Assembly (NCBI GenBank): GCA_023954855.1
Contig: JAGSGY010000040.1
Location: 1 to 46,907 of the forward strand
Source of the DNA: Pseudomonadota bacterium
GTDB lineage: Bacteria; Myxococcota_A; UBA796; GCA-2862545
Length of the DNA stretch: 46,907 bases
Reading direction: 5' to 3'
This document shows, piece by piece, positions 15,766 to 45,254 of the stretch. Made by a program: the position numbers and the translations under genes. Numbering within the stretch: the stretch's first letter is position 1; each line of letters begins with the position of its first letter. Below the pieces are notes generated by a model, which ran no database searches, was not told where the DNA came from, and worked only from the letters and a program-made list of their open reading frames with translations.

Positions 15766-16695
15766 ATGCGCACAACTGGAGTACTCGTTCTTGCCGTCCT
15801 AGCCAGTGTGGGGTGCAGCAAGGCGCCGCCACCGGCGAACCCGTCCTTCGACGATGCGCTGTCGTACACCTTTCGGACCTTCAACGGCGACGAAGTCGAC
15901 ATCGCGTACGCCATGCGGCAGCTCGAGACGCAGATCTATCTGGGCATGGACGTCGAGGCGGACCGCGAGCGCGATCGGGCCCTGAGTCCCTCGGAGCTCA
16001 GCGAGGATGATGTCTTCGATATCGACCGTCCAGACCGCCCCCTTGCGGATGCGATTCCGGTCTCGGTCGCGACCCTCTCTGCGCATGATCCGAGCCCCCA
16101 CGCCGAGATCCAGATGGCCGTCGACCAGACGCCCGTCGAGCCGTACTCGCCCGACTACTACGACCGCACCTTCCTCGAAGGCGAGGATTGCTTCGCCGAT
16201 CGCAGCTGCGCGCGGATGGAGACCCGGAACGACCTGATCAAGGACAACGCCTTGATGACGATTCCGTACTGGTTCTACAAGGACTTCCGCTGGGTGGATC
16301 TGAACCTTCCAGACCCGGAAGACGTGCCCGAGGGCGAGACCGCGGTCAACGACGGCGAGCCTCGCTGGGGCATCATCGCCAAGAGCTGGACGACTGAGAC
16401 CTTCGCCGGTGAGAACGAGAACGCGTACATCCACCAGTCCTTCACCATCGAGGTCTGGGTGCCCCGAGACGGAGGCGGCTTTGTGCGCGACGGAAGCGAG
16501 CAGAACGCCGACGAAGGGGAGTGGACGACGGACTCGACGGGAGGCGGAACGCTGCGCGCGCTGGCTCTGTGGACCGAGACCGAGTTCGACGGTCTCAACG
16601 TCAGCGACGACGTGGTGGCCGGCACCGCGAGAAAGGGCATCGACGACAACTTCAACGCCCAGGAAGAGCATCTCGACACGCTGAACGCACGCTAG
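15766..16695 (+). CDS. Predicted lipoprotein, unknown function
   Basis: 309 residues. The N-terminus MRTTGVLVLAVLASVGCSK looks like a lipoprotein signal with Cys17. The -3 position is Ser rather than Leu, so the lipobox is atypical and simple signal peptidase I processing cannot be excluded. The mature protein is acidic and hydrophilic. It contains two further cysteines (ECFADRSCARM-like region near residues 143-149) and a Trp/Tyr-rich central part (TIPYWFYKDFRWVDLNLPD). No family recognised. It may belong with the kinase-like gene 49 bp upstream. Its stop shares CTAG (16692-16695) with the convergent pbpC stop. Confidence 0.78.
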   Translation: MRTTGVLVLAVLASVGCSKAPPPANPSFDDALSYTFRTFNGDEVDIAYAMRQLETQIYLGMDVEADRERDRALSPSELSEDDVFDIDRPDRPLADAIPVSVATLSAHDPSPHAEIQMAVDQTPVEPYSPDYYDRTFLEGEDCFADRSCARMETRNDLIKDNALMTIPYWFYKDFRWVDLNLPDPEDVPEGETAVNDGEPRWGIIAKSWTTETFAGENENAYIHQSFTIEVWVPRDGGGFVRDGSEQNADEGEWTTDSTGGGTLRALALWTETEFDGLNVSDDVVAGTARKGIDDNFNAQEEHLDTLNAR

Positions 16696-19004
16696 TGCGC
16701 CGTGATGGTGACCTTCGAGCCGCTTGACGCGTAGGGCAGGCGAGCCTCCAGCGTGTGACGTCCGGGCTGAACGGGCCAGCGCGCGCTGTACGGGGCCTCG
16801 ACGACCTTCCAGGGCTCTCCGTCGACGTACCAGACGACCTGCTCGACCGAGGCGCTGACGGCCGCAGCCAGCAGGACGGTGCCCTGTTCTTCAGGCGCCT
16901 CCGGGTCCCGAAGCAGGTGGTCGCCGTCGTTCGGGGACAACACCGCGACGGAAGGCGCACCGTCTGCCGAGAGCTTGCGGGGGAGCACCGTCAGGCCGGC
17001 GCGTTCGGCCCACGCCGCGTAGCGCGGGGGAAGGTCCACAGCGGAGCGGGCGCGTGGCTTCGAGTCCCCCTCTGCATCGAGCTCGATCCGTACGTGCCAG
17101 GCGCAGGGTTGGGGTGAGCGCGGCAACCACTCTTGAACCCGGCTGGTGCAAGCGGGGGTCGCGGCGCCACCCGAGAGCGGGCAGACCGCGTGCAACGCCT
17201 CGCCGGTCGGCCCTGCTCGCGAGACATCGGCCAGACCTGCCGCTTCCTTGGGGTGCAGGGTCACAAGGGCGTCGTGAATCAGACTCGCCCCAGCGCGGTA
17301 GCCGGAGAGCTGCTGCATGGGCATCCAGTCGGGGTGGCCGACCCAGACGCCGACAACGTACCGGTCGGTCCACGCCACGGCCCAGGCATCCCGAAAGTCG
17401 GCCGAAGTGCCGGTCTTCACCGCGGCAGGAAACGGGAGCTCGCTGTGGCCCATGCGCGGGAACGTGGGCAGGCGGGCCATCGGGTCCGACAGCCATCCGG
17501 ACACCCGCCTTGCAGTGTCCGGGTCGAAGCGCTTGCCAACTGCCTGCTGAGTCTCGCGGTTCGTCCAGACCAAGCTGCGGGCGGTGCCGTCGGTGGCGAG
17601 GCCGGTGCTCGCCTGGACGAGCTGGGTGAGGGTGGTGGGCATGCCGCCGAGGGCGAGCGAGAAGCCGTAGTGTCCGCCTGAAGAATGGCCGTCGTGAAGG
17701 CCCAGATCGCCGTACAAGCCGTAGCCCTGGTCCAGGCCGATGCGACGCAAGATCTCGACGGCGGGCACATTGCGAGAGTTGGCCAGTGCCTGCCGCGGGA
17801 GCATCGGCCCGAGGAAGTCGCCGTCGGCATTTCCAATGCCATCCGGGCCGCGGCGGAGGTCGTCGAGCACGCGTCCCGGCTCGATGAGTCCGCGCTCGAG
17901 GGCCTCGGCGTAGAGGAAGGGCTTGAGGGTGCTGCCTGGGTTCCTCGGGGTGTTCGCGAAGTCGATCGACCCCCCAAAACGGTCGTCGAAGTAGTGCGTC
18001 GAGCCGACGGATGCGCGTACCGCTCCGGTCTCGAGCTCGACCACCACCATGGCCGCGTTGCCGGCCCCGCGGGCCTCCCAGTCGCGAATCTGGGTGCGAA
18101 GCTGCTCTTGGAGCTGTTCCTGGAGGGGTAGGTCGAGGGTGGTGAACACGCGCGGGTCGAGCGCGTAGCGGTGTCGCTCTGAGGGGCTGCGCAGGCGCTC
18201 TTCCAGCGCGATGACGCTGTGAAGCGTGGCTGCAGGGCGCTCGGGACGGTGATGAAAGATCAGGGTATCGAGCTCGAGGTCAGCGCGTTCCCGCTCGAGG
18301 GCGTCGACCGCCCCGTCTGCGTGCAGCTGGTCAAGGATGCGGCGGGCCCGCGCAATGCCCCGCTTGCGGCCTGCGGTGCTGTACGGGTTCATGCGTCCAG
18401 GCGACTGGGGAAGGGCTGTCAGAAAGGCGGTCTCGGCCCAGGACAGGTCGGCGACGGGCTTGTCGAAGTAGCGGCGGGCTGCGTAGGCGATGCCATGCAG
18501 GTTGTTTCCGTACGGCGCGAGTCGCAGGTACTGCGCGAGCACCTGCTGGTCGCCGTGCCGGTCGACAAGCGCAATCGCCGTCAGCGACTCGACGACCTTC
18601 TTCGCATAGGTGCGCGGGCCGGGGTCTTGCATGCGCGCGACCTGCATCGCCAGCGTGGAGGCCCCCGAGATGCGCTGCTGGCTGCGGGTGTTCTGGGCCA
18701 GGGCGCGCCCGACGGCGACCGGGTCCACGCCAGGGTGTTCGCCGAAGCGGCGGTCTTCGATGGCCAGCGTCGCCGCGACGACGCGTTCCGGGAGTTTGCC
18801 CTCTGCGTCGACGGCGGGCCAGAAACCGACCGGGTCACTCACGCCCGTCCCCACCTCCCCGAGGAAGTGTCCATGGCGGTCGAGGAGCAAGAGTGTGGGC
18901 TCCGGCTCGACCAGGGCTGCCTTACTGTGGGCCAGGCCAAGCAGGCCGAGACCCAGCAGACAGCCAGCCGTCAGCGCGGCAGCGATGGCACGCCGGAGCT
19001 TCAC
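16692..19004 (-). CDS. pbpC: Penicillin-binding protein 1C (copy 1)
   Basis: 770 residues, class A PBP of the 1C type, anchored in the inner membrane by an N-terminal helix (about 6-28). The glycosyltransferase domain has catalytic Glu83 (IEDRRFGEHPGVD) and GASTLAMQ (114-121). The transpeptidase domain has Ser358 in GSTLK, the SxN motif SRN (410-412) and KTGTS (530-534). The C-terminal region (about 600-770) matches the BiPBP_C extension characteristic of PBP1C. The GTG start sits inside the A2M stop codon (GTGA). Coupling of A2M and pbpC is known from E. coli yfhM-pbpC, where the pair is proposed as envelope defence: the trap protects the cell from proteases and the PBP repairs the wall. Shares CTAG at its stop with the convergent lipoprotein gene. 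Confidence 0.96.
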   Translation of the reverse strand: MKLRRAIAAALTAGCLLGLGLLGLAHSKAALVEPEPTLLLLDRHGHFLGEVGTGVSDPVGFWPAVDAEGKLPERVVAATLAIEDRRFGEHPGVDPVAVGRALAQNTRSQQRISGASTLAMQVARMQDPGPRTYAKKVVESLTAIALVDRHGDQQVLAQYLRLAPYGNNLHGIAYAARRYFDKPVADLSWAETAFLTALPQSPGRMNPYSTAGRKRGIARARRILDQLHADGAVDALERERADLELDTLIFHHRPERPAATLHSVIALEERLRSPSERHRYALDPRVFTTLDLPLQEQLQEQLRTQIRDWEARGAGNAAMVVVELETGAVRASVGSTHYFDDRFGGSIDFANTPRNPGSTLKPFLYAEALERGLIEPGRVLDDLRRGPDGIGNADGDFLGPMLPRQALANSRNVPAVEILRRIGLDQGYGLYGDLGLHDGHSSGGHYGFSLALGGMPTTLTQLVQASTGLATDGTARSLVWTNRETQQAVGKRFDPDTARRVSGWLSDPMARLPTFPRMGHSELPFPAAVKTGTSADFRDAWAVAWTDRYVVGVWVGHPDWMPMQQLSGYRAGASLIHDALVTLHPKEAAGLADVSRAGPTGEALHAVCPLSGGAATPACTSRVQEWLPRSPQPCAWHVRIELDAEGDSKPRARSAVDLPPRYAAWAERAGLTVLPRKLSADGAPSVAVLSPNDGDHLLRDPEAPEEQGTVLLAAAVSASVEQVVWYVDGEPWKVVEAPYSARWPVQPGRHTLEARLPYASSGSKVTITAH

Positions 19005-22000
19005 TCGGCCTCCACTGTGACCCAGGCGCCCGCCGACTGACCGCGAATGTCCGGGGAGTAGAGCATCTTCGCCTGGGCGGGCGGCTGCGAGAACCGACCC
19101 TCTGTGGTGGCCTTGACGCGGAAGGCGAAGTCGTAGGTGCCCTTCGGAAGGGTCTCGTAGAAGTAGGTCACTCGGTCATCGAGCCTGGCGATGTACGAGG
19201 GGGCCAGGGTGTCCTGGCGTGAGGCCGTGGCCTCCGGAGGCGCGGTGGCCAGGGCGGGGTTGAGTAGCTCGACCCCCGCGGCAAACGGGACGTCCACAGC
19301 GACGTAATGACGGGTCTCCGGCACGACAATCTGCACGTGTTCCTCGAGGATGTCGCCTGAGGTCAGCTTGAACTGCACGCCCCCATCCGCGAGATCGATG
19401 CGGTCGCCGAGGGCGCTGGCGAGCACCGGTCGGGCCTCACGGGTGATGACGAAGCCCGCCGCCTGCGGCGAGGCCTCGGCGCCCGGTGCCTTGGGAATGA
19501 AGTGGCTCGTGGCGAGAACCAACAGGGGTCCGCCGCTCTTCGCGGTGACCTCGATCGACTCGGCCGAGGCGAGGGTACGCACCAGGACGGGCTCCGACTT
19601 CGAAAGAGCCGCGGTCATGGGCTGGCCATCGACGGTGAGCGTGACGCTTCCACCAGGGCCATCGGCGCGCTCGAGCTGCTCCGACAGCGCGAACAGCGCC
19701 GCCGAGTTGGTGTGGGTGTTGCCCCAGCCATCATCGCGTCCCAGGGTCACCAGCGCCTGAATCATCAGCTTCAGGGTCGCCGAGTCGGGCTGCGTGCGAC
19801 CGATGGCGCGGGTCATCTTGGCGAGCGAGCGCGTCTCGGAGGGCAGGATGAGGGGACTGCGATGCGTTCGACGCTGCTTGAGCCCGCCGTAGACCTCGCG
19901 ACCCTCGAACAGGCGCACAATCACGCCGTCCTCGATGTCGGTGCTCAGTCTACCGGCGAGTCCGGCGCCGCTTCCCCCGGACCGATGTGCAGCCAGGGCG
20001 ACGGTCGCGAGACCTTCGTGGTCCAGGTACTGGGCGTTGCGGCTGAGCTCAGAGAGGTAGGCCTCGTCGATGGACCCGGTCGAGGCGAGTGCTTCGAGCG
20101 CCAGGGTGCGCTCCATCCACTTCTCGCCGTCGATGAACTGGGTGTAGTCGCTGCGCAGTGCGGAGCGCAACGTGCCGGTGAGGCGCTTCATCAGGGCGTC
20201 GTCGACGGTGTAGCCGGCCTCTTTCGCCTCGACGAGGAACTGCACCGTCCATGCCGTCAGGCTGACGCTGCCGCGGTAGCCAGGCCAGTGCGACACACGC
20301 TCGCCGTGGTCGATGACCTCGGGCAGGTAGGCCAGCGTGTCGTTCACGGCTCGGTCGAGCTCTTCCTGCGACGCGCGCAGGGCGGCGGTTCCGCGAATGC
20401 GCGACAGGGCGAGGTAGGCCCGAGCCTTGCTGATGCGCTGCTCCGAGGAGCCAATGGGGGCACGGCGCAAGAAGTCGGCGGCGGCGATCATGCGCACCAG
20501 GGCTGGGTCATCGCTGACGACGACCAGGCGCTGAACGCTGCCTGCACGCGCGGGCTCGGGCAGGGCGGGCAGGGTGACCGACTCGCCGGCCGCGAGCTCA
20601 TGGCTCTCTCGCAGGGTGACCCGGCCACGGTCGGGCAGCAGGGGTAGGCGGACTTCAAAGGCATCGGCGGCGCCGTCGCTCTGGCGGGCCACGGCCATGG
20701 TCACCTTGACCTCGTCCCGGGTGTAGCGCCCGTCCTCGCGCAACGCGGGGGTCGGCGCACGAACGCCGAAGCCGATACGCTCGGCGAGCACCGGGTTCCA
20801 GTCGAGGGTGCGCCGGCTCTCGCCCTGCACCTCGAGGCCCTCTGCGCGGATCTCTGCGCTTCCAGCTCCGCCGCCACCCTCGACGATGCGGCCGATGGCG
20901 GTGGCGGTGAAGGCATCACCGACACGGACGAAGCGGGGAAGGGCGGGCTGCGCCACCACGGGCAGTCGGACCCGCAGGTCGCCGGTACCCACGCCGAAGC
21001 GCTCTGGCCCGCTGATGGCCTTGGCCCGCAACGCGAAGACCGTCAGGTTGTCGGGTAGGGTGACGCGCACGGTCACCTTGCCACTCGGCCCCACCTTCAG
21101 GCTGGGCTCGTAGTAGGGCACGGGCTTGAAGTTCCTTCGGACCGTGGCCGCGTCGAGCGCGCTGTCCGCTGCCGAACGCTCCATCGCGTCGTCGCCGTCG
21201 CCGCCGGGCATCTCGGCATAGGGAATGGCGCCGAGCGTGAGGTTCCGAGTGTCGTGAATCGCCAGGCGACTGCGGCGGTCGGTGATGAAGTCGGGAAGCG
21301 GGTCGAGACGCTGTTCTTCGGCGAGGGCGAGCACCGCACGGTCCACCATCCAGAGGGTGACTTCGCCAGCGATGGGGCGGTCGTCTGGGTCCGTCAGGCG
21401 AACCGTGAGCTCGACCTCTTCGCCAGGAAGCGCCTGCTCGGGGGCTTCAATCGCCACCTGCACCGTGTTCTCGACGGGTGCGACACGCAGCCAGGTCGTG
21501 TTGGCGACCGTCACGGGCTTTCCGAGGTCCATGTTGCCGGTTCGACTGGCGCCCGCTTTTCGTCCACGGAAGAGCACGGTGTGCACGGGCAGCCGGGGAA
21601 CCCACCCCTCGTCGATGGTCAGGCGCACTCTCGCCTTGCCACCGCGCACGTCGACCCATTCGTACCGGTTCTCGGTCGGGGTCTCGATAACCACGAGGGC
21701 GGTCGCGGACTGGTAGGGGCTCTGGATGAGCAGGGTCGCCTGCTCGCCGGGCTCATAGAGGTCCTTGTTCGCGGTGATCTCGAACACGCCAGCCTTGGGG
21801 CGTTCCCAGCTCACGGGCTCATCGCCGGACACGAAGAGGTCGACGGTGACGAGCTGCCCGCGTCCGAGGTCGTCCTGGCCTTCGACTTCGACCAGGTAGA
21901 CACCGGCGGTCGGCACATCGAAGGACACGGGAATCGGGGCATCGGTACTGGTCAGCGTGCGGGTCTCCACGACCTCGTCGACGATGTCGGTGACGTAGCG

Positions 22001-24763
22001 CGCGCTGCCCTCGGTGAAGTCGGAGGCTTGCAGGTGGCTGTGCCACTGGCGGTGCTTGAGGCGGACCGTCAGCTCCTTGCCGGCGATGGGCTTTCCATCG
22101 GGGCCGACGGCAACGATCTCGGGCTCGATCTGGGTCTCGTTCTCGACAAAGCGGGGGGCCTTGAGACCGAGTGCGAAGGCGGGGACGGCATGCACGCGGG
22201 TCGTCCCGGTGACGGTCTGGTCATCGGCGCCTGTAACCGTGGCCTCGACGATGTAAGTGCGGGCCTGGGCCGTGGGCTCGAGCGAAGGGTCGAGGTCGAG
22301 CATGGCCTGGCCGGTGGCGTCCGTCTGCACGCTGCGGACGACGTCTGGGGAGGCTCGGAACCGGCTCCGCCCCGCAAAGCGGGCATCCGTCGAGTAGACG
22401 AAGCCCTCGATGGGATCGGGGTTCCAAGCATACGGGAACTGGGTCACGCGCCAGCGCACAGGGCGCTCAGCGACACGTCCGCCGGCGTAGTAGGTCGCGG
22501 TCATCTGCACGTCGAAAGGGGCGTCGAGCGGCACGGTCGTGTCGGCGTGAAGGTCGACCTCGAAGGTCGGCAGGCGGTACGCCTCGACCATGAAGTTCGT
22601 CCAGGCCAGCGCGTGACCCTTGGAGTCGATGAACTGCGCGGAGTAGTTGCCGGTCGCACCCTCTTCTTCCGTGGCGAAGGTGACGTCGAAGGCGCCGAGC
22701 TCGGACAGCGTGGCCGGAATGCGTGTCTGCTGCCCCGATGGCGCGGACACCACGACGGTGCCCGCACCCGCGAGGGTCGTGAGCTCGCCCTGGAAACGAC
22801 GGCGGACGTAGCCCTTCAGGTAGACCGTCTCGCCGGGGCGGTAGATCGGGCGCTCGGGAAACAGGTGGCCCAGGTTCTTGGCGTTCTCGTAGCGATGCTC
22901 GAGGCTCGAGAAAGCCCAGGCGAGCCAGGACTCTCCGCTCGCGCGCCAGTGGTTGTCGGCGAACTGCTCGGGGGCGTGGTGGGGGTCGAGGACGAGCTCG
23001 TCGTCGCCCTTCACGACCCGAATGCGCTGTAGGGAACCACTCCCACGCCCAGGGGCGGCCCAGAGGACGCTTCCGTCGGACTTCGTGGTCACCGAGGCCA
23101 GGGTGGTCCACTTGCTGTTGTGGACGCCCTCGAGCAGGATCTTGGCGCCAGACACGGGCTCGCCGGTGGAGAGCGAGGTCACGGAAAAGCGCACCTCGGC
23201 GTCGGTCTCGATGGTGGTCAAAGAGAGGTCGGTGACCTGAATGCGTCGCCACGCCCGCTTTGTGCTGCCGTCGAGGGTGCGCACGCCGACCAGGTAGTGG
23301 CCAGGCTTGTCTTTGCCAGACAGCTCGGTGAGGGCCTCGTCGATCTCGAGGCCAAAGGTCGCAGCGCCGCCGTCTTCGCGGAGGGGCAGGTCGACGACAC
23401 GCGAGAAGCCGGTGGTGGGCAGGGCCTTGAGCCGCTGGGCGACTTCCCGGGTGGTGGCTTGCCGCAACTCGGTGAAGTTCTCGGGCTCTTCTCCGGGTCC
23501 AGGGGGGCGCGTAGCCTCGTTGATCTCGAGGGTGCTGTGGAGCGGCCAATAGTTCCGGTTTTCGGGCTCGACGGGGACGACGCGGAGGACGGCGCGACCA
23601 TGGCCTCGTCCGGACAGCCCAATGCGCTTCGGACCGTGGAGCTCCATCACGCCGCTTGCTTGCCACGCGAGGTAGGGGCTGCGCTTCTCGAAGGTCAGAT
23701 ACAGCTTGCTCGACCCTTGGATGTCCAGGGAGCGGCCTCGCGTGTCCTGAATCGCCGTCGGCGCCAGGGTGACCTCGTAGAGAGTGTCGCGATCGAAGTC
23801 GCCCGAGACGACGATGTTGCTGCCTTGTCGAGTCAGCTCGAGTCCAGGGACGGCGGGGTCGAGGCGGATCAGGTTTCGAGCTTCGACGGGGCCGAGATCC
23901 GCGGGGGTGGCCGAGAACTGCACCAAGATCTGGGCGTCGCCACGGCACTTCAGCGGCTGGTCGGCGGCGTAGCGCGTCCCCTCCGGAGTCACCGGCCAGG
24001 TGCGCGCGCGGCAGCCCAGGGCGGTCGCCCGAAACGGCTCGGCCGTCGAGAAGTTCAGCGTCGACACCGAGTCGCCATCATCGCCAAGGGCCAGGCCAAA
24101 GCGCAGCAACACCTGCTTGCCGAGGCCGATGGGACGGTCGAGGGTCACGGCGTACCGGGCGGGGGACTCCGCCGAGGGACGGTCCAGGGCCTTGATCTCG
24201 AAGTCGTCCGCATCGAGCTCCACTCCGGCGCGGCCGTAGCCGCCCAGGTCGCGTACTTCGAGGGTGAGCATCTTTCCGAGGGCTTCCGTGGGAATGGGGT
24301 GGGGGAAGGTCAGGTTCACGGTCTGGATGGGGCCCAGGTTCGAGGCCCCATTGCGCGGATCGGAGTGACTCGGCGGCGACATCAGGGTGGCCAGCTCGGC
24401 AATCTCGCCCTCGGTGGACACGGTGAGGGTCTGAAGGGGAGGCCACGGCTCGGCCGGGCGGAACTGGAGGGTCTGACTGTCGAGCCACGTCCAGGCTCCG
24501 GGCTGTTCGGGGGCTACGCGAACCAGACGGCCTGGCTGGTCTTCGGGGCCGCTTGACGGACCGGTGGCTTTGGGGAAGAACACCGTCACCGGATCCCATG
24601 CCCGCACGAAGCGGTCGGGCACCACGACCACGCCTCGGGCCGCGGCGGGGCGTGACAGCATCGCGTCGAGCAGCTCGTCCCCCCCGGTGGCGCCTGCGGC
24701 CAGCGCGATGGCAAGGGCCGGCACCAGGACGATGGGGCGGGAGAAGAAGGCTTTGATGTTCAT
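19001..24763 (-). CDS. Bacterial alpha-2-macroglobulin with Ser in place of the thioester Cys
   Basis: 1920 residues, close to the length of large bacterial A2Ms. An N-terminal signal or anchor (about 9-25) has no lipobox Cys, so it is not an obvious lipoprotein. Hallmarks: MG-domain motif RPIYRPGETVYLKG, the core motif ALPRFVRVGDAF, the thioester-domain helices (SVSLTAWTVQFLVEA; DDGWGNTHTNSAALFALSEQL) and the terminal motif GRFSQPPAQAKMLY. Where active A2Ms have GCxEQ, this protein reads PIGSSEQ: Ser1439 (codon TCC at 20449-20447) replaces the Cys that forms the thioester. It therefore cannot trap proteases covalently by the usual chemistry, resembling thioester-less paralogues such as E. 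coli YfaS. It is translationally coupled at both ends (ATGA with the 1659 aa gene, GTGA with pbpC). Confidence 0.93.
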   Translation of the reverse strand: MNIKAFFSRPIVLVPALAIALAAGATGGDELLDAMLSRPAAARGVVVVPDRFVRAWDPVTVFFPKATGPSSGPEDQPGRLVRVAPEQPGAWTWLDSQTLQFRPAEPWPPLQTLTVSTEGEIAELATLMSPPSHSDPRNGASNLGPIQTVNLTFPHPIPTEALGKMLTLEVRDLGGYGRAGVELDADDFEIKALDRPSAESPARYAVTLDRPIGLGKQVLLRFGLALGDDGDSVSTLNFSTAEPFRATALGCRARTWPVTPEGTRYAADQPLKCRGDAQILVQFSATPADLGPVEARNLIRLDPAVPGLELTRQGSNIVVSGDFDRDTLYEVTLAPTAIQDTRGRSLDIQGSSKLYLTFEKRSPYLAWQASGVMELHGPKRIGLSGRGHGRAVLRVVPVEPENRNYWPLHSTLEINEATRPPGPGEEPENFTELRQATTREVAQRLKALPTTGFSRVVDLPLREDGGAATFGLEIDEALTELSGKDKPGHYLVGVRTLDGSTKRAWRRIQVTDLSLTTIETDAEVRFSVTSLSTGEPVSGAKILLEGVHNSKWTTLASVTTKSDGSVLWAAPGRGSGSLQRIRVVKGDDELVLDPHHAPEQFADNHWRASGESWLAWAFSSLEHRYENAKNLGHLFPERPIYRPGETVYLKGYVRRRFQGELTTLAGAGTVVVSAPSGQQTRIPATLSELGAFDVTFATEEEGATGNYSAQFIDSKGHALAWTNFMVEAYRLPTFEVDLHADTTVPLDAPFDVQMTATYYAGGRVAERPVRWRVTQFPYAWNPDPIEGFVYSTDARFAGRSRFRASPDVVRSVQTDATGQAMLDLDPSLEPTAQARTYIVEATVTGADDQTVTGTTRVHAVPAFALGLKAPRFVENETQIEPEIVAVGPDGKPIAGKELTVRLKHRQWHSHLQASDFTEGSARYVTDIVDEVVETRTLTSTDAPIPVSFDVPTAGVYLVEVEGQDDLGRGQLVTVDLFVSGDEPVSWERPKAGVFEITANKDLYEPGEQATLLIQSPYQSATALVVIETPTENRYEWVDVRGGKARVRLTIDEGWVPRLPVHTVLFRGRKAGASRTGNMDLGKPVTVANTTWLRVAPVENTVQVAIEAPEQALPGEEVELTVRLTDPDDRPIAGEVTLWMVDRAVLALAEEQRLDPLPDFITDRRSRLAIHDTRNLTLGAIPYAEMPGGDGDDAMERSAADSALDAATVRRNFKPVPYYEPSLKVGPSGKVTVRVTLPDNLTVFALRAKAISGPERFGVGTGDLRVRLPVVAQPALPRFVRVGDAFTATAIGRIVEGGGGAGSAEIRAEGLEVQGESRRTLDWNPVLAERIGFGVRAPTPALREDGRYTRDEVKVTMAVARQSDGAADAFEVRLPLLPDRGRVTLRESHELAAGESVTLPALPEPARAGSVQRLVVVSDDPALVRMIAAADFLRRAPIGSSEQRISKARAYLALSRIRGTAALRASQEELDRAVNDTLAYLPEVIDHGERVSHWPGYRGSVSLTAWTVQFLVEAKEAGYTVDDALMKRLTGTLRSALRSDYTQFIDGEKWMERTLALEALASTGSIDEAYLSELSRNAQYLDHEGLATVALAAHRSGGSGAGLAGRLSTDIEDGVIVRLFEGREVYGGLKQRRTHRSPLILPSETRSLAKMTRAIGRTQPDSATLKLMIQALVTLGRDDGWGNTHTNSAALFALSEQLERADGPGGSVTLTVDGQPMTAALSKSEPVLVRTLASAESIEVTAKSGGPLLVLATSHFIPKAPGAEASPQAAGFVITREARPVLASALGDRIDLADGGVQFKLTSGDILEEHVQIVVPETRHYVAVDVPFAAGVELLNPALATAPPEATASRQDTLAPSYIARLDDRVTYFYETLPKGTYDFAFRVKATTEGRFSQPPAQAKMLYSPDIRGQSAGAWVTVEAE

Positions 24764-27700
24764 GGGGCCTCCGAGACGAGCTCGAGGTAGTGGCGGACGA
24801 CGTCATCGGGTGGACCGAGGTCGGGGGGCTCGATGCCGGTGAGGACTGGGCGCGCGCGGACCGGTGCCGCGTCGCTGGGGAGGGCGAGGATCAAGGTGTG
24901 GCGGCCTTCGGTGACCTCGGTCATCTGCACGAGGCCGGTGCCGAGGTTGATGCCGTCGCGAACGAGGGTGGCCTCGACGCGGTCAGCCGTGGCCTTCACG
25001 CCAATGCCGATGGGGCCATCGCGCGGCACGTCGAAGTGGAATGCGAGCGCCTCCCCAGGGCCGAGCAGGACCTCGGGCCCGATACCTTCGGTGATCGGCG
25101 TGCTCGCTTTGACGCGAAGCTCGGCGGTACCCGTCAGTTCGGCGGTGCCGAGGGCGCGAATACCGATGCTGAGGGGTGTTGGGCTGTACTGGCGCACCCA
25201 GCCGCCGCGTTCGAGCACGGTGGTGGTGGCTTCCTTGCCGTAGATCGTGACCTCGGCCGGCGAGGCGAGTCCGAGCTCGATGAGGCCGAACTTCTGGACG
25301 CGGAGCAGCATCTCCTTGCCGCTGAGTTCGATGGCACCGGGGTTTGCGGGGGTGCCGCGCGTCTCGGCCGCCACCGCTGGAGAGACCCAGAGCGCTCCGG
25401 ATCCGGGTTCGGTGCGGACGGTCGCGTAGGCCGTGCCACTGACGCTTGCACCCTTCACGTCCTTGAGCTTTCCGCTGGCATCAACCAGTCGGCCCGTTGC
25501 GCCGAGTAGGTGCGACGTTCCCTCACCATCGAGGGTCACCAGACGGGTCACGGCGTCCGGGGAGCTCCAGCTCGCAGGTCCGTCGGCGCTTGCGGTGGCC
25601 ATGGGAGCGTCTGTCTTGACGCTGCGGACCCGCCAGCTACGCGAGGTCTCTGCCAGGTTCAGCAGCCAGATCTCGCTCGCCGACGTGGTGACCTCGAAGG
25701 TCTCGGGTTCGCCCTGGGCCCAGAGGACCACCGGTTCGTCTCGGCCGGAGCGCATCGCGAGCACCACGTCCCCGCCGAGGGTGGCGCGCAGGGTGTGAAG
25801 ACCGCCCTTGACCCGCAGTCGCTGGGATGCCCCCGCGGCCAGGCTGCCGTCGAGTGCCTTTCCGTTTCCGAGGTCTTCGACCCTGCCCTGGGCGAAGGCC
25901 CAGACACCGGCCGTGGTCTCGATGCTGTGGTCGTCTCCGGAGCTCAAGCTCGCGGTCGTGGCCTTCGCGTCCAGGTCGACGGCGAGGCTTGCGCGCTGCC
26001 CGACGGCGGTGTGTGCGAAGCCTGCGTGCTCGCCGAGGCGAACCAGCGGCGTGCCCGCACTGGCGCTGGCCATGACGACAAGCGGTCCGCTGTGCTCCGC
26101 GAGGTCTACGACGGCGTCTCCCTCGGCCGGGACGTCAATCACGCGGTCGCGGTTGGTACCCAGCACGATGCGCCGACCGACGACATGGCCGCTGCCGACC
26201 AGAACGAGGGTCTCTGCAGCCAGCTGACCGCCTTCTACCGGTACGCACTGGGGTCCCCCGCATTGCCAAAGGGTGCTCTCGCCGTGAGCCAGGCGGAACA
26301 CACCGGGGTCGCCGGACATGAGTATCGAGCCGACGGGCCGACGGGCGTCGCCGAGTCGGGTGCCGCGCGCGAGACCGCGCTCGTTCATGCTGCGCGGCTT
26401 CTGCGTGTACACCTGAAGGGTCGCCTCGGCGCCGCGAGGGTCCAGGCTCCACACGCGCACTCGCACGTCGCTGACCCGCAGGGCAGGGAGCTCGATCTCC
26501 CTGCCGGTCATGATGCCGGCGGTGTACCAGGTCAGGCCGTCGGTGGTCTCGATCGACACGCCCAGGCTCTCGGTCGAGCTCGCTCGGGCGATGATGACCT
26601 GGCCCTGGATGTTTGTGATGGGGAAGTTGTGCACCGTCCTTCCGGGAACGAAGGTGACGGTCTTTCCACTCGGGAGCTCGGGCTGAGCCGAGATTTCGGG
26701 TGCCGACATGCGGACCTGGGTCGTCGCCGATGAGCTGCCAATCGGCTCGAGGACCAGGCTGTACCGACCCGGCTCGACGCGCGCTTCGATTCGGAAGTTC
26801 CAGTCGTCTGGGCGGTCGTCATTGCTTGCGACGAGGCCGTCGGGGCCTTCGAGTCGGGCACGGACGTCCGATTGGCCGAAGCTCGAGAGGATGAGCGCGC
26901 CGTCTCCGCCCACAGATACCGGAACAGTGGCCGGAACGCGGACGGAGCGCTCCACGCCAGCGAGCAACTCCTCGGTGGCGACCTGCACGCTGTAGGTCAC
27001 GCCGTGGTCGCGGCGAGCCGCCTTCACCTGCAAGATGTAGCTTCCCGCCTCGAGCTTGGCTGAGAACGGCTGGCCAGGCAGCACCCGGCCGATCTCGACC
27101 CGGTCGCGAATGACATAGGCGGTCATGGTCTCTGAGAGGTGGATGCGCACATTGGCGTCGGCTGGCAGCTCGAAGGTCCAGTCGTCGGTGAAGCGCGCAC
27201 CGTCCTTGTCGGCCGGCTCGGTCCAGACGTGCTGGCGACTCGCGTTGAGGGCGAGAGGGTGTGGACCGTGGCCCTCGTAGTGCTCGGAGCTCTTGGCGCG
27301 AACCGCGCGGGTCAGCCGTCGGCTCTCGGTGCGCTCGGGCACCACCACGACGCTGTACGTACCTTTGCGGAGCTGGCGGGACAGGGCGCAGTTCTGCTCT
27401 GGTGGCGACTGGATGGGGTAGCCGTCGCTGTCCTCGATGCGGCAGCTGAAGTTGCGTCCGAGCCCCTTCGACTCGATGGTCCACGAGCTGTCTTCGTCGA
27501 CGTCGAGGCTGTAGCGAACCGCGTCCCCGGCAGGAAGCGTGATCCGCGCGGGTTCACCATCAAGCAGCGGTCCTCCGGCGACCTCGGTGGCTTTGGCGAG
27601 GGAGATGCCGAGGTGGCCCCGGCTCTTGCCCTGTGCGCTGAGACTGAGCTGGTAGTCGCCCGAGCCCAGGTACCGGCTGACCAGGAAGTTGCGTCCGACG

Positions 27701-29739
27701 CCGTTCTGATTGGCCGAGGCGAAGCCGACTTGGGTACGGGTGCGGATCTCGCCGCTCGTAGCCAGTAGCCCTGTGCTCTGCAGGTGGTAGAGGCCGGGCT
27801 CGGCGACGTCGACGGCGTAGGTCGTGGACTCGGTGCGCTCGAGGTCGAGAAATGCGGGTGCACGGGCATCGAGGTCGGGAAAGTCGGGCAGCTGCGCGAG
27901 CCGCTCCCGCGTGAGCGTCGGCGGAGGGGTGTCCGGCAGATGAGTGTGCGGGCGCCACTTCAGCGACACGCGGGTGACCTCATCGCTCGGGTTCTTCAGC
28001 TTCACCGCGAATGCGGCTCCTGCTGAGACCTCTGCGACTTCCTGGGCCCCCGTGCCTTCGACGTCGACCAGAAGCGGGCTTCCGTCGGGAGTGGTGGCGG
28101 TGAGCACGCCGCGCTCGGGCACGCGGACCCGCACGGTGACCTTCTCCTTTCCGAGCAGAGTCAGCGCGAGGGGGCGAGACACGTCGATGGGGCTGTCGCG
28201 AACCGAGGTGGCCGTCAGCACCCCAGGCGGTCCGTAGATCTGCATGCGGTCGCCGTCCTGGGACGAGATCTGCAGGTCTTGCAGCACGGGCCGAAGCTTC
28301 ATGAGCGGCAGCTTTGCGCCGACCAGCTCGCGAGCGCTCGAGCTCCACGTGTTCGGGGTGATCTGCAGCGTGACGATGCCCGGCTCGACGGCGTGCAGCT
28401 TGACCAGATGCAGGCCGCCTGAGAGGTCCTTGGTGACCGAGGCATGCGAGGGCTTGGGGGAGCGGTACCGGGGAGGCGGGTCGAGCAGTAGCGGCTCGAC
28501 GGTCACGTACGCATCGCCCTCCACGCTGAAGTTCCACGAGCCGGTGTCGGGGATGCTCACGAGCATCTGCCCGTCCGAGAGCAGGTTGAAGCGCTCCTCC
28601 ACGCGCTGATTCGCATTGAGCTTGATGGCGTAGGACTCGACCACCAGCGTCGCGCGGTCGGGGCGACGACGGTAGATGAGCCCGGTGGGCGGGAACACGT
28701 CCGCATCGTGTGCGCCCACGATCGAGGTGAGGGTGTGCCGTCCCGAGTCGAGGGACTGGGTCCAGCGCGCGGGTGGCAGGATCTGCAGGGTGGCGGTCTG
28801 CCCTGGGATCCCGCGCACCTCGATCGCCGAGCGTCCGCGAATACTCGCCGCGGCTTCGGGCACGCGGCTCTCGTCGGTGATCTTCGCGACGTTGCCTCTG
28901 CCGCGTGCGAAGCGCGCCTCACCCGAGAGCGACCGGCTGCTGATCTGGGCGTTGGCGGTGTTCTCGGGCAGCGCGAGGCGTGCTGTGCTCGCCCCGTTTG
29001 GGACGTTGAACCGCGCGAAGCCCTTGGCGTCGAGGGTGATGCGGTGCTCGGACGGGACGCCCAGCTCGGGCACGCCCATGCGCACCCAGAGTCGGTTGTC
29101 GTCGAGGTCCTCGGTCCACGGCTCGGAGACCCCGCCATAGGCCGTGACCCGGTACAGCCCTGGCTCGAGCTGGGTCTCGAGGGTGCAGTCCCGCCAAGGC
29201 TGACCCTCGATGGGCTCGAAGAGCGCGCAGTGCGGTGTGCTCGGGTGCAGCCAGGTTCCGTCTTGCCAGAGCCGGAGGTCGCCTAGGTAGCGGCCCGCGG
29301 CCTCCAGACTGACGGTCGTGCGCTCTGGGATGTCGATCCACCAGCTGCGCTGCTCCTTGTCGCTAAGGCTGGTGGTCTCTTCACGAAGCTCCAGAAGCAG
29401 CGGAAGGTCGGGCCCTTGCAGCTCCTCGAAGCGGGTGGCCTTGACGGCCGCCTCGCCGGTGCCGTTCGGTGCGGACTCGAGCCAGAGCTTTACCTCGCCG
29501 CGGTCCAGGAACACGTCGACGCGTCCATCGCGCACGCCGACCACGCCGTCGAGCTTGCCGGGCCCACTCATGTGGTCGACCACCTGAAGCGATGTGCCCC
29601 TGGGCGAGGTCACCTCGAGCGCATAGCGCCCAAACGGGTCGACCGTGACGATGGCCTCGGCATGTCCGGTCGCCGGGACCGTCGCTGGCGTGACGGTGGC
29701 GGGAGCTGCGAGAGCGAGAAGGGGGGCGAGCAGGAGCAT
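24760..29739 (-). CDS. Giant exported beta-module protein, unknown, first gene of the A2M-pbpC operon
   Basis: 1659 residues. A short signal peptide (MLLLAPLLALAAPA) decides the start, with GAGGTTCGA before the ATG. I recognise no catalytic motif. The chain looks like a string of beta-sandwich modules resembling pre-peptidase C-terminal/Ig-like domains, each ending in a G-x-Y strand: EPGLYRVTA (about 192-200), EPGLYHLQS (650), GSGDYQLSL (697), RKGTYSVVV (785), EAGSYILQV (900) and EPGRYSLVL (995). Cysteines are few and some appear paired. The stop overlaps the A2M start (ATGA), so production is tied to the A2M and PBP1C. A periplasmic partner, substrate-presenting scaffold or inhibitor for the thioester-less A2M is the simplest inference. 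Confidence 0.85.
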   Translation of the reverse strand: MLLLAPLLALAAPATVTPATVPATGHAEAIVTVDPFGRYALEVTSPRGTSLQVVDHMSGPGKLDGVVGVRDGRVDVFLDRGEVKLWLESAPNGTGEAAVKATRFEELQGPDLPLLLELREETTSLSDKEQRSWWIDIPERTTVSLEAAGRYLGDLRLWQDGTWLHPSTPHCALFEPIEGQPWRDCTLETQLEPGLYRVTAYGGVSEPWTEDLDDNRLWVRMGVPELGVPSEHRITLDAKGFARFNVPNGASTARLALPENTANAQISSRSLSGEARFARGRGNVAKITDESRVPEAAASIRGRSAIEVRGIPGQTATLQILPPARWTQSLDSGRHTLTSIVGAHDADVFPPTGLIYRRRPDRATLVVESYAIKLNANQRVEERFNLLSDGQMLVSIPDTGSWNFSVEGDAYVTVEPLLLDPPPRYRSPKPSHASVTKDLSGGLHLVKLHAVEPGIVTLQITPNTWSSSARELVGAKLPLMKLRPVLQDLQISSQDGDRMQIYGPPGVLTATSVRDSPIDVSRPLALTLLGKEKVTVRVRVPERGVLTATTPDGSPLLVDVEGTGAQEVAEVSAGAAFAVKLKNPSDEVTRVSLKWRPHTHLPDTPPPTLTRERLAQLPDFPDLDARAPAFLDLERTESTTYAVDVAEPGLYHLQSTGLLATSGEIRTRTQVGFASANQNGVGRNFLVSRYLGSGDYQLSLSAQGKSRGHLGISLAKATEVAGGPLLDGEPARITLPAGDAVRYSLDVDEDSSWTIESKGLGRNFSCRIEDSDGYPIQSPPEQNCALSRQLRKGTYSVVVVPERTESRRLTRAVRAKSSEHYEGHGPHPLALNASRQHVWTEPADKDGARFTDDWTFELPADANVRIHLSETMTAYVIRDRVEIGRVLPGQPFSAKLEAGSYILQVKAARRDHGVTYSVQVATEELLAGVERSVRVPATVPVSVGGDGALILSSFGQSDVRARLEGPDGLVASNDDRPDDWNFRIEARVEPGRYSLVLEPIGSSSATTQVRMSAPEISAQPELPSGKTVTFVPGRTVHNFPITNIQGQVIIARASSTESLGVSIETTDGLTWYTAGIMTGREIELPALRVSDVRVRVWSLDPRGAEATLQVYTQKPRSMNERGLARGTRLGDARRPVGSILMSGDPGVFRLAHGESTLWQCGGPQCVPVEGGQLAAETLVLVGSGHVVGRRIVLGTNRDRVIDVPAEGDAVVDLAEHSGPLVVMASASAGTPLVRLGEHAGFAHTAVGQRASLAVDLDAKATTASLSSGDDHSIETTAGVWAFAQGRVEDLGNGKALDGSLAAGASQRLRVKGGLHTLRATLGGDVVLAMRSGRDEPVVLWAQGEPETFEVTTSASEIWLLNLAETSRSWRVRSVKTDAPMATASADGPASWSSPDAVTRLVTLDGEGTSHLLGATGRLVDASGKLKDVKGASVSGTAYATVRTEPGSGALWVSPAVAAETRGTPANPGAIELSGKEMLLRVQKFGLIELGLASPAEVTIYGKEATTTVLERGGWVRQYSPTPLSIGIRALGTAELTGTAELRVKASTPITEGIGPEVLLGPGEALAFHFDVPRDGPIGIGVKATADRVEATLVRDGINLGTGLVQMTEVTEGRHTLILALPSDAAPVRARPVLTGIEPPDLGPPDDVVRHYLELVSEAP

Positions 29740-41862: not shown

Positions 41863-43065
41863 ATGCCCATCCCCGCCTTGCTCGATCTGTCGGAGGACAT
41901 CGCCGCCGGTGTGCCGATTGGACTCGCCAAGGCCTGGGCCTCCGGAGAGCGAAGCCCCGCGCGAGCTAAGGAGCTTCTCGAGCCGTACCGGGTGCGAGGC
42001 ACCCTCGTTCGTTCCGATACACCGGGCCTCGGCGACATCACCGAGAGGGTGTCGCTGACCGAGGCGCTGTCGATGATCTCGCGTCCCAAGGAGGTCCTGC
42101 ACGCACTCGGAGTACTCGCCGGTGGACGGGCGGTGGGACGTTGGGTGGCCGACAACGGCGTGCTCTTCTTCCCAGAGTCGGTGTCTCCAGACCGCGTGCT
42201 CTGCGCGATGCTCGAGGTGCATCGCCGGTACGAGCCGGGCATGGCAAAGCTCGGGCTCGCGATCGGCAGTGGTGAGTTCTACGCGCTCAAGGGTGGCATC
42301 TACGGTGCCGACGCCGACGCGATCTGCATGGTGGGTGAGGACCACACCGCGCCCGGTGAGACGGTGATGACCAAGGCCTTCGCGGCCAAGCTGCGCAGCG
42401 CCACGGCGTTTGGTACGACCGCTCGCGACGACCTGCCGGGTTGGGTTCGCGTGGACAGTGGCCCGGGATGGCCTCGCGCGGAGCTCGTCGATCGAGACTA
42501 CCCGGCGCCCTACGACGACGGACTCCGCCAGCGCCTGCGCGAGCTTCACGCCGGACGCGACGACGAAGAAGTGCTCGCTGAGATCGAGCTGTCCTACCTG
42601 CAGCCCCGCACCGTGTTGATCATCGAGGGCACGTCGCTCGCCCGCGACACCTCGCCAGAGGGTCTGCTCGAACGCCTGTATGGCTACGCCGCCATTCACC
42701 GCGTGGTCCGCTTCCTCGTCGCCGACGACGGCGTGCCTCACAAGGTGGCCGGCCGGTACGGAATCATCGCCTACAACACGCCGAAGGAGGCGCTCGCGGC
42801 CTCTGCGGCAGTCATTCCCGCGCTCAGGCGCCGAGGCGTCAAGGTGCGCATGGGCATGGCGGCCGGCGATGTGTTGGTGTTCTCGATGGCCCATGGCCAG
42901 AGCGAGTTTGCGGGTGAGGTCATTGCGAAGGCCGCGCGCCTCGCAGGTGCCGCTGAAGTCGACGGGCTGATCCTCGAGCGCTCGCTGGCGCTCGAGCTTG
43001 GCGTCGAGGGAATGCCCAAGGTCGTCGATGTGAGCGGTGTGCATCTCGACGCAGTCGCACGCTAG
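41863..43065 (+). CDS. Protein with two class III nucleotide-cyclase-like domains (second degenerate)
   Basis: 400 residues, soluble. Residues about 45-180 follow the class III cyclase order: GTLVRSDTPGL (Asp52 as first metal Asp), VADNGVLFF (Asp97 as second), KLGLAIGSGEFYALKGGIYGADADAICMV. Residues about 248-385 repeat it: VLIIEGTS (Glu255), KVAGRYGIIAYNTPKEAL (Arg298 where KxxGD has Asp), VKVRMGMAAGDVLVFSM, EVIAKAARLAGAAEVDG. The second copy lacks the metal Asp pair, so a catalytic domain plus pseudo-domain arrangement is likely, as in C1-C2 cyclases. Whether the first copy makes cAMP, cGMP or nothing is unknown. The frame is open from 41716; I chose 41863 for GGAG upstream. The stop shares CTAG with the convergent pbpC. 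Confidence 0.65.
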   Translation: MPIPALLDLSEDIAAGVPIGLAKAWASGERSPARAKELLEPYRVRGTLVRSDTPGLGDITERVSLTEALSMISRPKEVLHALGVLAGGRAVGRWVADNGVLFFPESVSPDRVLCAMLEVHRRYEPGMAKLGLAIGSGEFYALKGGIYGADADAICMVGEDHTAPGETVMTKAFAAKLRSATAFGTTARDDLPGWVRVDSGPGWPRAELVDRDYPAPYDDGLRQRLRELHAGRDDEEVLAEIELSYLQPRTVLIIEGTSLARDTSPEGLLERLYGYAAIHRVVRFLVADDGVPHKVAGRYGIIAYNTPKEALAASAAVIPALRRRGVKVRMGMAAGDVLVFSMAHGQSEFAGEVIAKAARLAGAAEVDGLILERSLALELGVEGMPKVVDVSGVHLDAVAR

Positions 43066-45254
43066 TCCACGCCGCCTACGTGAACGCGTACCTGACCGAC
43101 GGGCGCGCCGTCGAGGAACAGCTCGATGCCGTGCTCCCCTGGCACGGTGGGGGTCCACAGGGCGACCTGGTCGGCGGGACCCGTGTGCACCTCGACGCCA
43201 TCCACTTCCCATCGAGCCGTGCTGCCTGCAGAGGCCGATGCGCGCAGCGGCACCCGCTGCGCTGACGCGGGCAAGCGCGGGTCGACATAGAGCACCGTGC
43301 CGTTCACCGGATAGCGAATGCCCCCCGCGAGACCGCCTTGGCAGGCTCCGAGTCGGCCCTGCTCGCCGGCCCAGCCCAGGTACTCCGCCGGCCAGCGCAC
43401 GCCGCAGGCGTCGTGCCAGGTGCAGGTCTCTGGAGAGGGTGTGCCCTCGGGAACCCGGTCGTCACGGCTGTGGGTGCAGTGGGGCCCCGCGGCGAGCCCG
43501 GAGAGGGCGCAGGTCGTCTGCATGACGGTCGGACCCGGTGGGGCAGGGGCTTCGGCGTCGAGGCCTGTGACTTCGTCCAGGACTGCCGCCCAAATGGGTC
43601 CTGCGCCGGTGACGCCGCTGACATCGCCCATCGGCCGGCCATCGAAGTTGCCGACCCAGACGCCGACCACGTAGCGATCGGTGTAGCCGACGGTCCAGTT
43701 GTCTCGAAAGCCCGTGCTGGTCCCCGTCTTCGCCGAGGCGGGGTACGGCCGCGTCAGGATGCCGTCGCGTCCGAAGGCCGGTGCACGGGCGATGGGATCG
43801 GCCAACACGTCGCTGACCTGCCAGGCGGCCATGGGCGAGAACACGCGAACGGTCTCGGGCACCTCGTCTGTCGCGACGACCCGTAGCGGTGCATAGAGGC
43901 CGTCGCGGGCGAGCGTGGTGTACGCGGCGACCAGCTGCTCGAGGGTCACTTCTCCGCCACCGAGCGTCAGCCCAAGGCCATAGGTCGAGGCGCGTGCATC
44001 GAGGGGGAGTCCCATCGTCACCAGTCGTTCCTGAAGCGCGGGGACGCCGATGTCGTCGAGCAGACGCACCGCGGGGACGTTTCCACTCGTCGCGAGCGCG
44101 GTCCGTAGCGAGACCGGGCCGGTGAAGCTCTCGCTGTAGTTGCGCGGAGCCCAGGTGCCGTGCGTGGTCGCGTACTGGACCGGCAGGTCGGGGATGACCT
44201 CGCTCGGCGTGTGTCCTTCTTCAAACGCGAGGGCGTAGAGAAAGGGCTTGAGGGCGCTTCCAGGGCTTCGGGCGGTGCGAGCGCCGTCGTTCTCTCCGTC
44301 GACCGCTGAGAAGTCGCCGGAGCCGACCCATGCCCGTACGTCGCCGGCGGGCAACTCGACGACGAGCACGGCCGCGTGGTCCACCTGCCGGCCTTCGAGA
44401 GCGGCCAGGCGGTCAGCGACGATGGCCTCGACCTGGCGCTGTAGTTCTCGGTCCACGGTGCTGTGCACGACGGACTCGGCGCGGGTCTCGAGCAGGTGGG
44501 CGGTGAGATGAGGGGCCTCGGCTGGGGCGGGGTTCGCGCGCAACTCAATCGCTTCTGAACGCGCTCGAGTTGCCTCCTCCTCGGTGATCAGCTTGTGTTG
44601 CAGCATGCGGTCGAGCACACGGTCGCGAGCTTGGCGGGCCGCGTCCGGACTGACCGAGGGATGCAGCCGTGAAGGGGCAGGCAGCAGTCCGACGAGCAGG
44701 GCGGCCTCGGCGAGAGAGACGCTGCTCGCGCTCTCATCAAAGGTCCGCTGTGCCGCTGCTTCAATGCCGGTGGCGCCGCGGCCAAAGTAGGCTCGATTCA
44801 GGTACCACGTGAGGATCTCGTCCTTGTCGAGGTGCAGGTCGAGGCGAATGGCGCGCCAGGCCTCGACGGCCTTTCCGGGCAGTCCGGTGGGACGACCGGC
44901 CAGCAGGCGAGAGAGCTGCATTGTCAGGGTCGAGCCGCCTTGAACTGCGCTTCCTGCGCGGACATCTGCTCGGGCCGCGCGAAGCAACGCGAGGGGGTCG
45001 ATGCCGACGTGGCTGTAGAACCGCTGGTCTTCTGCGGCGATCAGGGCGTCCACGACGTGCTTAGAGACCTGGTCGAGCTCTACCCATGCGGCCCTTCCGC
45101 GATGGGGGACGGTCTGCTCGGCGAGCACCCGCCCGTTGCGGTCGAGGACCTGGGCGTGGGCCACCTCCTCGAACCAGCTGTCGGGCACCGGCCAAGCGAG
45201 CGCGGCGAGTACGGCAACGCCGCCCGCCACCGCCATCGCGACGCGCTGCTTCAC
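43062..45254 (-). CDS. pbpC: Penicillin-binding protein 1C (copy 2)
   Basis: 730 residues, class A PBP with N-terminal anchor (about 5-22). Glycosyltransferase Glu75 in AAEDQRFYSHVGID and GGSTLTMQLS (107-116). Transpeptidase Ser333 in SALK, SGN (390-392) and KTGTS (509-513). A BiPBP_C-like tail (about 560-730) contains several cysteines (TTCALSGLAAGPHCTH; ETCTWHDACG). The two PBP1Cs of the window are clearly diverged, since only motif regions match closely, so any duplication is old. The GTG start lies within the A2M stop (GTGA), exactly as in copy 1. It is expected to rebuild peptidoglycan after envelope damage, in partnership with the A2M. Confidence 0.95.
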   Translation of the reverse strand: MKQRVAMAVAGGVAVLAALAWPVPDSWFEEVAHAQVLDRNGRVLAEQTVPHRGRAAWVELDQVSKHVVDALIAAEDQRFYSHVGIDPLALLRAARADVRAGSAVQGGSTLTMQLSRLLAGRPTGLPGKAVEAWRAIRLDLHLDKDEILTWYLNRAYFGRGATGIEAAAQRTFDESASSVSLAEAALLVGLLPAPSRLHPSVSPDAARQARDRVLDRMLQHKLITEEEATRARSEAIELRANPAPAEAPHLTAHLLETRAESVVHSTVDRELQRQVEAIVADRLAALEGRQVDHAAVLVVELPAGDVRAWVGSGDFSAVDGENDGARTARSPGSALKPFLYALAFEEGHTPSEVIPDLPVQYATTHGTWAPRNYSESFTGPVSLRTALATSGNVPAVRLLDDIGVPALQERLVTMGLPLDARASTYGLGLTLGGGEVTLEQLVAAYTTLARDGLYAPLRVVATDEVPETVRVFSPMAAWQVSDVLADPIARAPAFGRDGILTRPYPASAKTGTSTGFRDNWTVGYTDRYVVGVWVGNFDGRPMGDVSGVTGAGPIWAAVLDEVTGLDAEAPAPPGPTVMQTTCALSGLAAGPHCTHSRDDRVPEGTPSPETCTWHDACGVRWPAEYLGWAGEQGRLGACQGGLAGGIRYPVNGTVLYVDPRLPASAQRVPLRASASAGSTARWEVDGVEVHTGPADQVALWTPTVPGEHGIELFLDGAPVGQVRVHVGGVD

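Follow-up and report, generated by a model that had tools for sequence, protein, structure and literature searches.

We analyzed a 46,907-nucleotide stretch of DNA (the window), a single contig from a genome of 6.1 Mb. On its minus strand lie three co-directional open reading frames, with 4-bp overlaps at both junctions. The first encodes a very large exported protein, which we call the giant and which is present as a single copy in the genome. The second encodes an alpha-2-macroglobulin (A2M), and the third encodes PBP1C. Alpha-2-macroglobulins are protease traps. The features of the locus are:

24760-29739, minus strand: giant exported protein, 1659 amino acids, tandem jelly-roll modules (open reading frame with an export-signal-like N-terminus and no lipobox)
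24760-24763, minus strand: ATGA overlap between giant and A2M (context ccccATGAac)
19001-24763, minus strand: alpha-2-macroglobulin, 1920 amino acids, giant-linked subfamily, no lipobox (Pfam, profile comparison)
19001-19004, minus strand: GTGA overlap between A2M and PBP1C (context ccgaGTGAag)
16692-19004, minus strand: PBP1C, 770 amino acids, GT51 and transpeptidase, motifs STLK, SRN and KTGTS intact (TIGR02073, Pfam)

The open reading frames, their lengths, and both overlaps are as an earlier sequence-only reading described them. That reading also named the second and third proteins, and database searches uphold both names. In the A2M, Pfam finds bMG10 (2.9e-26), A2M_BRD (2.9e-19), MG2, and A2M, and the protein is a distant relative of E. 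coli YfhM (ECAM), with E = 1.4e-26 by profile comparison and about 22% identity. PBP1C matches TIGR02073 (1.2e-132; at 444 bits, this is slightly under the 494-bit cutoff), and it has the GT51 domain as well as a transpeptidase domain with the S-x-x-K, S-x-N, and KTG motifs.

The window also contains a second A2M-PBP1C pair (43062-46873, minus strand). These genes likewise overlap by 4 bp, and the A2M is cut by the end of the contig. This second A2M retains a thioester motif (GCVEQ), so both kinds of A2M-PBP1C unit are present in one genome.

We then examined the giant. Its N-terminus has a hydrophobic stretch that resembles an export signal. None of Pfam, NCBIfam, PADLOC, and the PDB sequences has a family or entry that significantly matches the whole protein. 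Pfam also recognizes no enzyme family within it. AlphaFold modelled residues 19-1120 from an alignment of 39 homologues and residues 925-1659 from one of 34; both models have a mean pLDDT of 88 and consist almost entirely of beta strands. From the length and the strand count, we estimate that the giant is a chain of roughly 16 jelly-roll modules.

The sequence-only reading had noticed repeated beta modules that end in G-x-Y, and profile comparisons bear this out. When we compared 17 segments of the giant with HHalign, at least eight modules (20-112, 113-222, 512-618, 618-716, 716-818, 818-925, 925-1018, and 1538-1640) were mutually homologous: each reached a probability of 85-96% with one or more of the others. 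The main parts of the protein are:

29404-29682, minus strand: module 1, residues 20-112 (HHalign 91-92% to residues 716-818)
29074-29403, minus strand: module 2, residues 113-222 (HHalign up to 86% to 716-818)
27886-28206, minus strand: module, residues 512-618 (HHalign up to 86% to 716-818)
27592-27888, minus strand: module, residues 618-716, PPC/collagen-binding-domain fold (HHalign 96% to its neighbours; VIA Z 13.1 to 5iku and 13.0 to 5sv5)
27286-27594, minus strand: module, residues 716-818, PPC/collagen-binding-domain fold (HHalign 85-96% to several modules; Z 10.5 to PliG, 4dzg)
26965-27288, minus strand: module, residues 818-925, jelly roll (HHalign up to 85%; Z up to 10.9)
26686-26967, minus strand: module, residues 925-1018, the best conserved (HHalign 96% to 618-716 and 716-818; conservation)
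26794-26820, minus strand: near-invariant motif DDRPDDWNF, residues 974-982 (homologue alignment)
25126-26382, minus strand: residues 1120-1538, all-beta, least conserved part (conservation profile, model)
24820-25128, minus strand: C-terminal module, residues 1538-1640, PPC fold (VIA, profile search, HHalign 94%)

Several modules have the jelly-roll fold of PPC and collagen-binding domains (Z 12.3-13.1 over 92-99 residues, rmsd 1.9-3.2). For the C-terminal module, VIA gives Z = 12.3 to the PPC structures 5sv5 and 3jqw and Z = 11.8 to PliG (4dzg; 95 residues, rmsd 2.1). A profile of this module ranks the collagen-binding domain of a collagenase (5iku) first among PDB sequences, with a weak E of 0.0028. 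The Pfam PPC family (PF04151) has weak matches in 7 of 25 giant homologues (the best is 1.4e-5, below the gathering score) and no match in the giant of the window. These structural matches span parts of the models, and residues 223-512 and 1120-1538 are scarcely covered. Conservation among homologues is highest at residues 20-250 and 620-1018 and lowest at 1120-1538. The PPC fold has many uses, which counts against inferring a binding partner from the fold. (Foldseek searches with the whole models returned neuropilin CUB domains, complement C3/C5, and toxins. Because their TM-scores were below 0.45 and these are generic chains of beta sandwiches, we set them aside as evidence of kinship.)

We then asked how widespread the giant is and whether it stays with the A2M. 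A scan by alignment of one genome per species (84,980 species) found 40 giant loci; a scan of the same genome-contig set with the single sequence of the giant found no match. The homologues are full-length, with about 30-55% identity, and their gene order is unchanged across many genomes, which is far more than chance would produce. According to the record titles, they come from Myxococcota, Acidobacteria, Elusimicrobia, Nitrospirae, Desulfuromonadales, Alpha- and Gammaproteobacteria, and Magnetococcales. One locus that has all three genes (L094) comes from the type strain Arhodomonas aquaeolei DSM 8974.

First, the two genes are adjacent almost everywhere. An A2M lies directly downstream of the giant at 32 of the 40 loci, often with a 4-bp overlap. 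Another six loci are cut by contig ends and two are unlinked, so the linkage is 32 of 34 testable loci. The sequence-only reading had described the coupling as strict, and this holds across the family: homologues of the giant do not lie mostly away from A2M genes (2/34). Furthermore, genome searches located an A2M from the same subfamily as the window's in all eight genomes with cut or unlinked loci. In particular, the two unlinked genomes (G010 and G020) have both proteins, which implies that the tie is functional and more than positional. In one of these genomes, the giant is broken into two open reading frames (L060:9725-15028), and the other has an additional, incomplete giant close by, a C-terminal part of 532 amino acids (L063:18113-19711).

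Second, the two proteins occur in the same genomes, in counts that are uncorrected for relatedness. Among 58 related genomes, the giant is present in 11 and the A2M subfamily is present in the identical 11. In a sample of 284 genomes from the phylum, we found 15 giants and 14 subfamily A2Ms; all 14 are shared, and the 15th genome has fragments of the giant only. Among 149 genomes from another class (that of an Acidobacteria MAG, L057), giant and A2M are present in the identical 20. The subfamily is sharply delimited, as the best matches of giant-linked A2Ms score at least 1660 bits and all other A2Ms score at most about 430. Third, the trees of the giant and the A2M are largely congruent (Mantel r = 0.95, 16 of 28 splits in common, also uncorrected for relatedness). 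The giant-A2M link is real, and it is general across several phyla.

PBP1C is a less constant companion. It lies downstream of the A2M at 23 of the 30 loci with enough sequence, and all 23 aligned linked PBP1Cs keep the catalytic motifs, with small variation. At the other seven loci it is non-adjacent, which counts against a three-gene unit. PBP1C of the window's subfamily is present in 10 of the 11 giant-bearing relatives and in none of the 47 others; the 11th genome, which is incomplete, has no PBP1C orthologue, and this too counts against a three-gene unit. Around the giant-A2M loci we found no further conserved genes: the conserved neighbours of the A2M are the giant and PBP1C only.

Two features of the A2M concern trapping:

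20438-20452, minus strand: GSSEQ, degenerate thioester motif, A2M residues 1438-1442 (Cys1187 of ECAM aligns with Ser1439)
21149-21193, minus strand: variable loop with indels, A2M residues 1191-1205, candidate bait (alignment with the bait region of ECAM)

The sequence-only reading had called this A2M thioester-less. That is correct for the window's protein, which has Ser1439, but it does not extend to the family: the C-x-E-Q motif is intact in 21 of 31 giant-linked A2Ms. The cysteine is lost in 9 of the 11 giant-linked A2Ms from the window's order, and each of the 18 testable A2Ms that are not linked to a giant retains C-x-E-Q (including the second A2M of the window). This distribution indicates that the subfamily is ancestrally thioester-bearing, and that the loss is secondary and mainly in the window's lineage. 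We also considered classifying the window's A2M as type II (MagD-type) because it lacks the thioester, and dropped this because most of the subfamily keeps C-x-E-Q. A DDR-like motif is present in 26 of the 31 giant-linked A2Ms and an ExMY-like motif in 22 (the C-terminal DDR and ExMY motifs were described for ECAM; PMC4498604). ECAM has a lipobox, and we found none in the 31 giant-linked A2Ms or in the 40 giants. Separately, a profile of the A2M has a weak match to an L,D-transpeptidase region (E about 1e-4) in its N-terminal part, at residues 52-126 of the window's protein (24386-24610, minus strand), which Pfam's Big_10 overlaps.

How does this locus compare to known systems? As in the type I pair of E. 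coli, YfhM (ECAM) and PbpC, the A2M adjoins PBP1C and has a bait region, a thioester-domain region, and a C-terminal MG domain, and most members of its subfamily have C-x-E-Q. Unlike ECAM, the window's A2M is larger, belongs to a distinct subfamily, has no lipobox, has lost the thioester, and has the giant upstream; in E. coli K-12, yfhM is not preceded by a giant gene. The A2M-PBP1C pair was previously proposed to be a trap-and-repair defence (PMC5764988). The Mag complex of Pseudomonas (MagD, MagA, MagB, and MagF) is similar in another way, as it too combines a thioester-less, non-lipidated A2M with exported partners. MagD traps protease non-covalently, lacks a lipobox, and needs MagB for its membrane location and stability (PMC5764988). 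However, the Mag partners are just 26-60 kDa and different in kind, the six-gene operon lacks PBP1C, and the subfamily of the window's A2M, unlike MagD, mostly bears the thioester. By analogy, the giant's role toward its A2M may be comparable to that of MagB.

Both the pairing of A2M with PBP1C and the PPC fold have been described before. In the literature that we searched, mainly outside subscription journals, neither the family of the giant nor its obligate link to a subfamily of A2Ms is described. The function of bacterial A2Ms is still debated, as is the reason for their position beside PBP1C, and an obligate third partner in several phyla is a direct handle on both questions. The sequence-only reading had proposed an undescribed envelope system, which is plausible. 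The near-exceptionless inheritance of giant and A2M together, usually with PBP1C and in several phyla, points to an undescribed three-part envelope defence.

We give about even chances to the idea that a non-lipidated A2M depends on the giant as its scaffold or targeting subunit, within a trap-and-repair envelope unit that includes PBP1C. Giant and A2M still occur together in genomes where their genes are unlinked. They therefore seem to need each other, which suggests this role. We infer that the proteins form a physical complex, and the anchoring, the targets, and the defensive role that we outline here are likewise inferred. The three proteins would be inherited as one envelope-defence unit. 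The giant would position the A2M in the periplasm, probably on the peptidoglycan or close to PBP1C, and might also bring it into contact with invading enzymes. The bait region of the A2M would recognize proteases, and trapping would follow. The trap would be covalent in A2Ms that retain the thioester and non-covalent in those that have lost it, such as the window's. PBP1C would then resynthesize the damaged wall. A more elaborate version, in which the giant's PPC modules both target the dedicated A2M and capture invading wall-degrading enzymes, so that the covalent trap could be lost, is rather unlikely.

A serious rival, which we nevertheless consider unlikely, is that the giant inhibits or soaks up peptidoglycan hydrolases. 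Its PliG-like modules would bind the muramidases of rivals or predators, the A2M would handle proteases, and PBP1C would handle repair. PliG, a periplasmic inhibitor of g-type lysozymes, is indeed among the best structural matches, both for the C-terminal module and for residues 716-815 (Z = 10.5), and it shares the periplasmic compartment. Also, MagD protects P. aeruginosa from T6SS effectors that target peptidoglycan (PMC12663445). But collagenase PPC domains match equally well or better (Z 12-13), and PliG is a single-domain protein with 3-12% identity to the giant's modules. Because PliG and PPC match the same modules, fold similarity is no proof of inhibition. (In collagenases, PPC domains are C-terminal appendages of enzymes, whereas the giant is an entire chain of such modules with no recognized enzyme.) A further hint is that one giant, from a Rhodospirillaceae bacterium (L074:9545-15169), has an N-terminal LprI ("lysozyme inhibitor") domain fused ahead of its modules (E = 1e-8). 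This fusion was seen in a single member, and in Salmonella a protein with an LprI domain plays no part in lysozyme resistance (PMC7933661), which argues against inhibition.

Another view, which strikes us as quite improbable, is that the giant is a structural protein of the envelope or surface that never contacts the A2M and shares an operon with it only for co-regulation under envelope stress. PPC-like modules are common in secreted proteins, no enzyme family is recognized in the giant, and a shared transcript would be enough for co-expression. But plain co-regulation does not predict that the genes would be kept together even when unlinked, as in G010 and G020, and almost never be found apart.

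A further alternative, which is very unlikely, is that the giant hands targets to the A2M, or that it holds the protease after bait cleavage, so that covalent capture is no longer needed and the thioester can decay. Cysteine losses are indeed concentrated in giant-linked A2Ms and absent from the 18 giant-free ones. However, most giant-linked A2Ms across the phyla keep the motif, the tree may require no more than two loss events, and MagD traps without a thioester and without such a partner. The earlier suggestion that the giant replaces the A2M's trapping function thus fits the pattern of loss but not the retention of the motif in most giant systems, and the giant is no simple substitute for the thioester. 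As the losses represent at least two events, the contrast with giant-free A2Ms is weak given relatedness, and suggestive only. The pattern of loss is also a natural experiment on the need for covalent capture.

Finally, within the group L058, L059, L067, and L072, giants that share about 64-66% identity with the L058 giant come from MAGs labelled as Desulfuromonadales, Elusimicrobia, Nitrospirae, and Nitrospiria. Either the gene was recently transferred horizontally or the contigs were misbinned.
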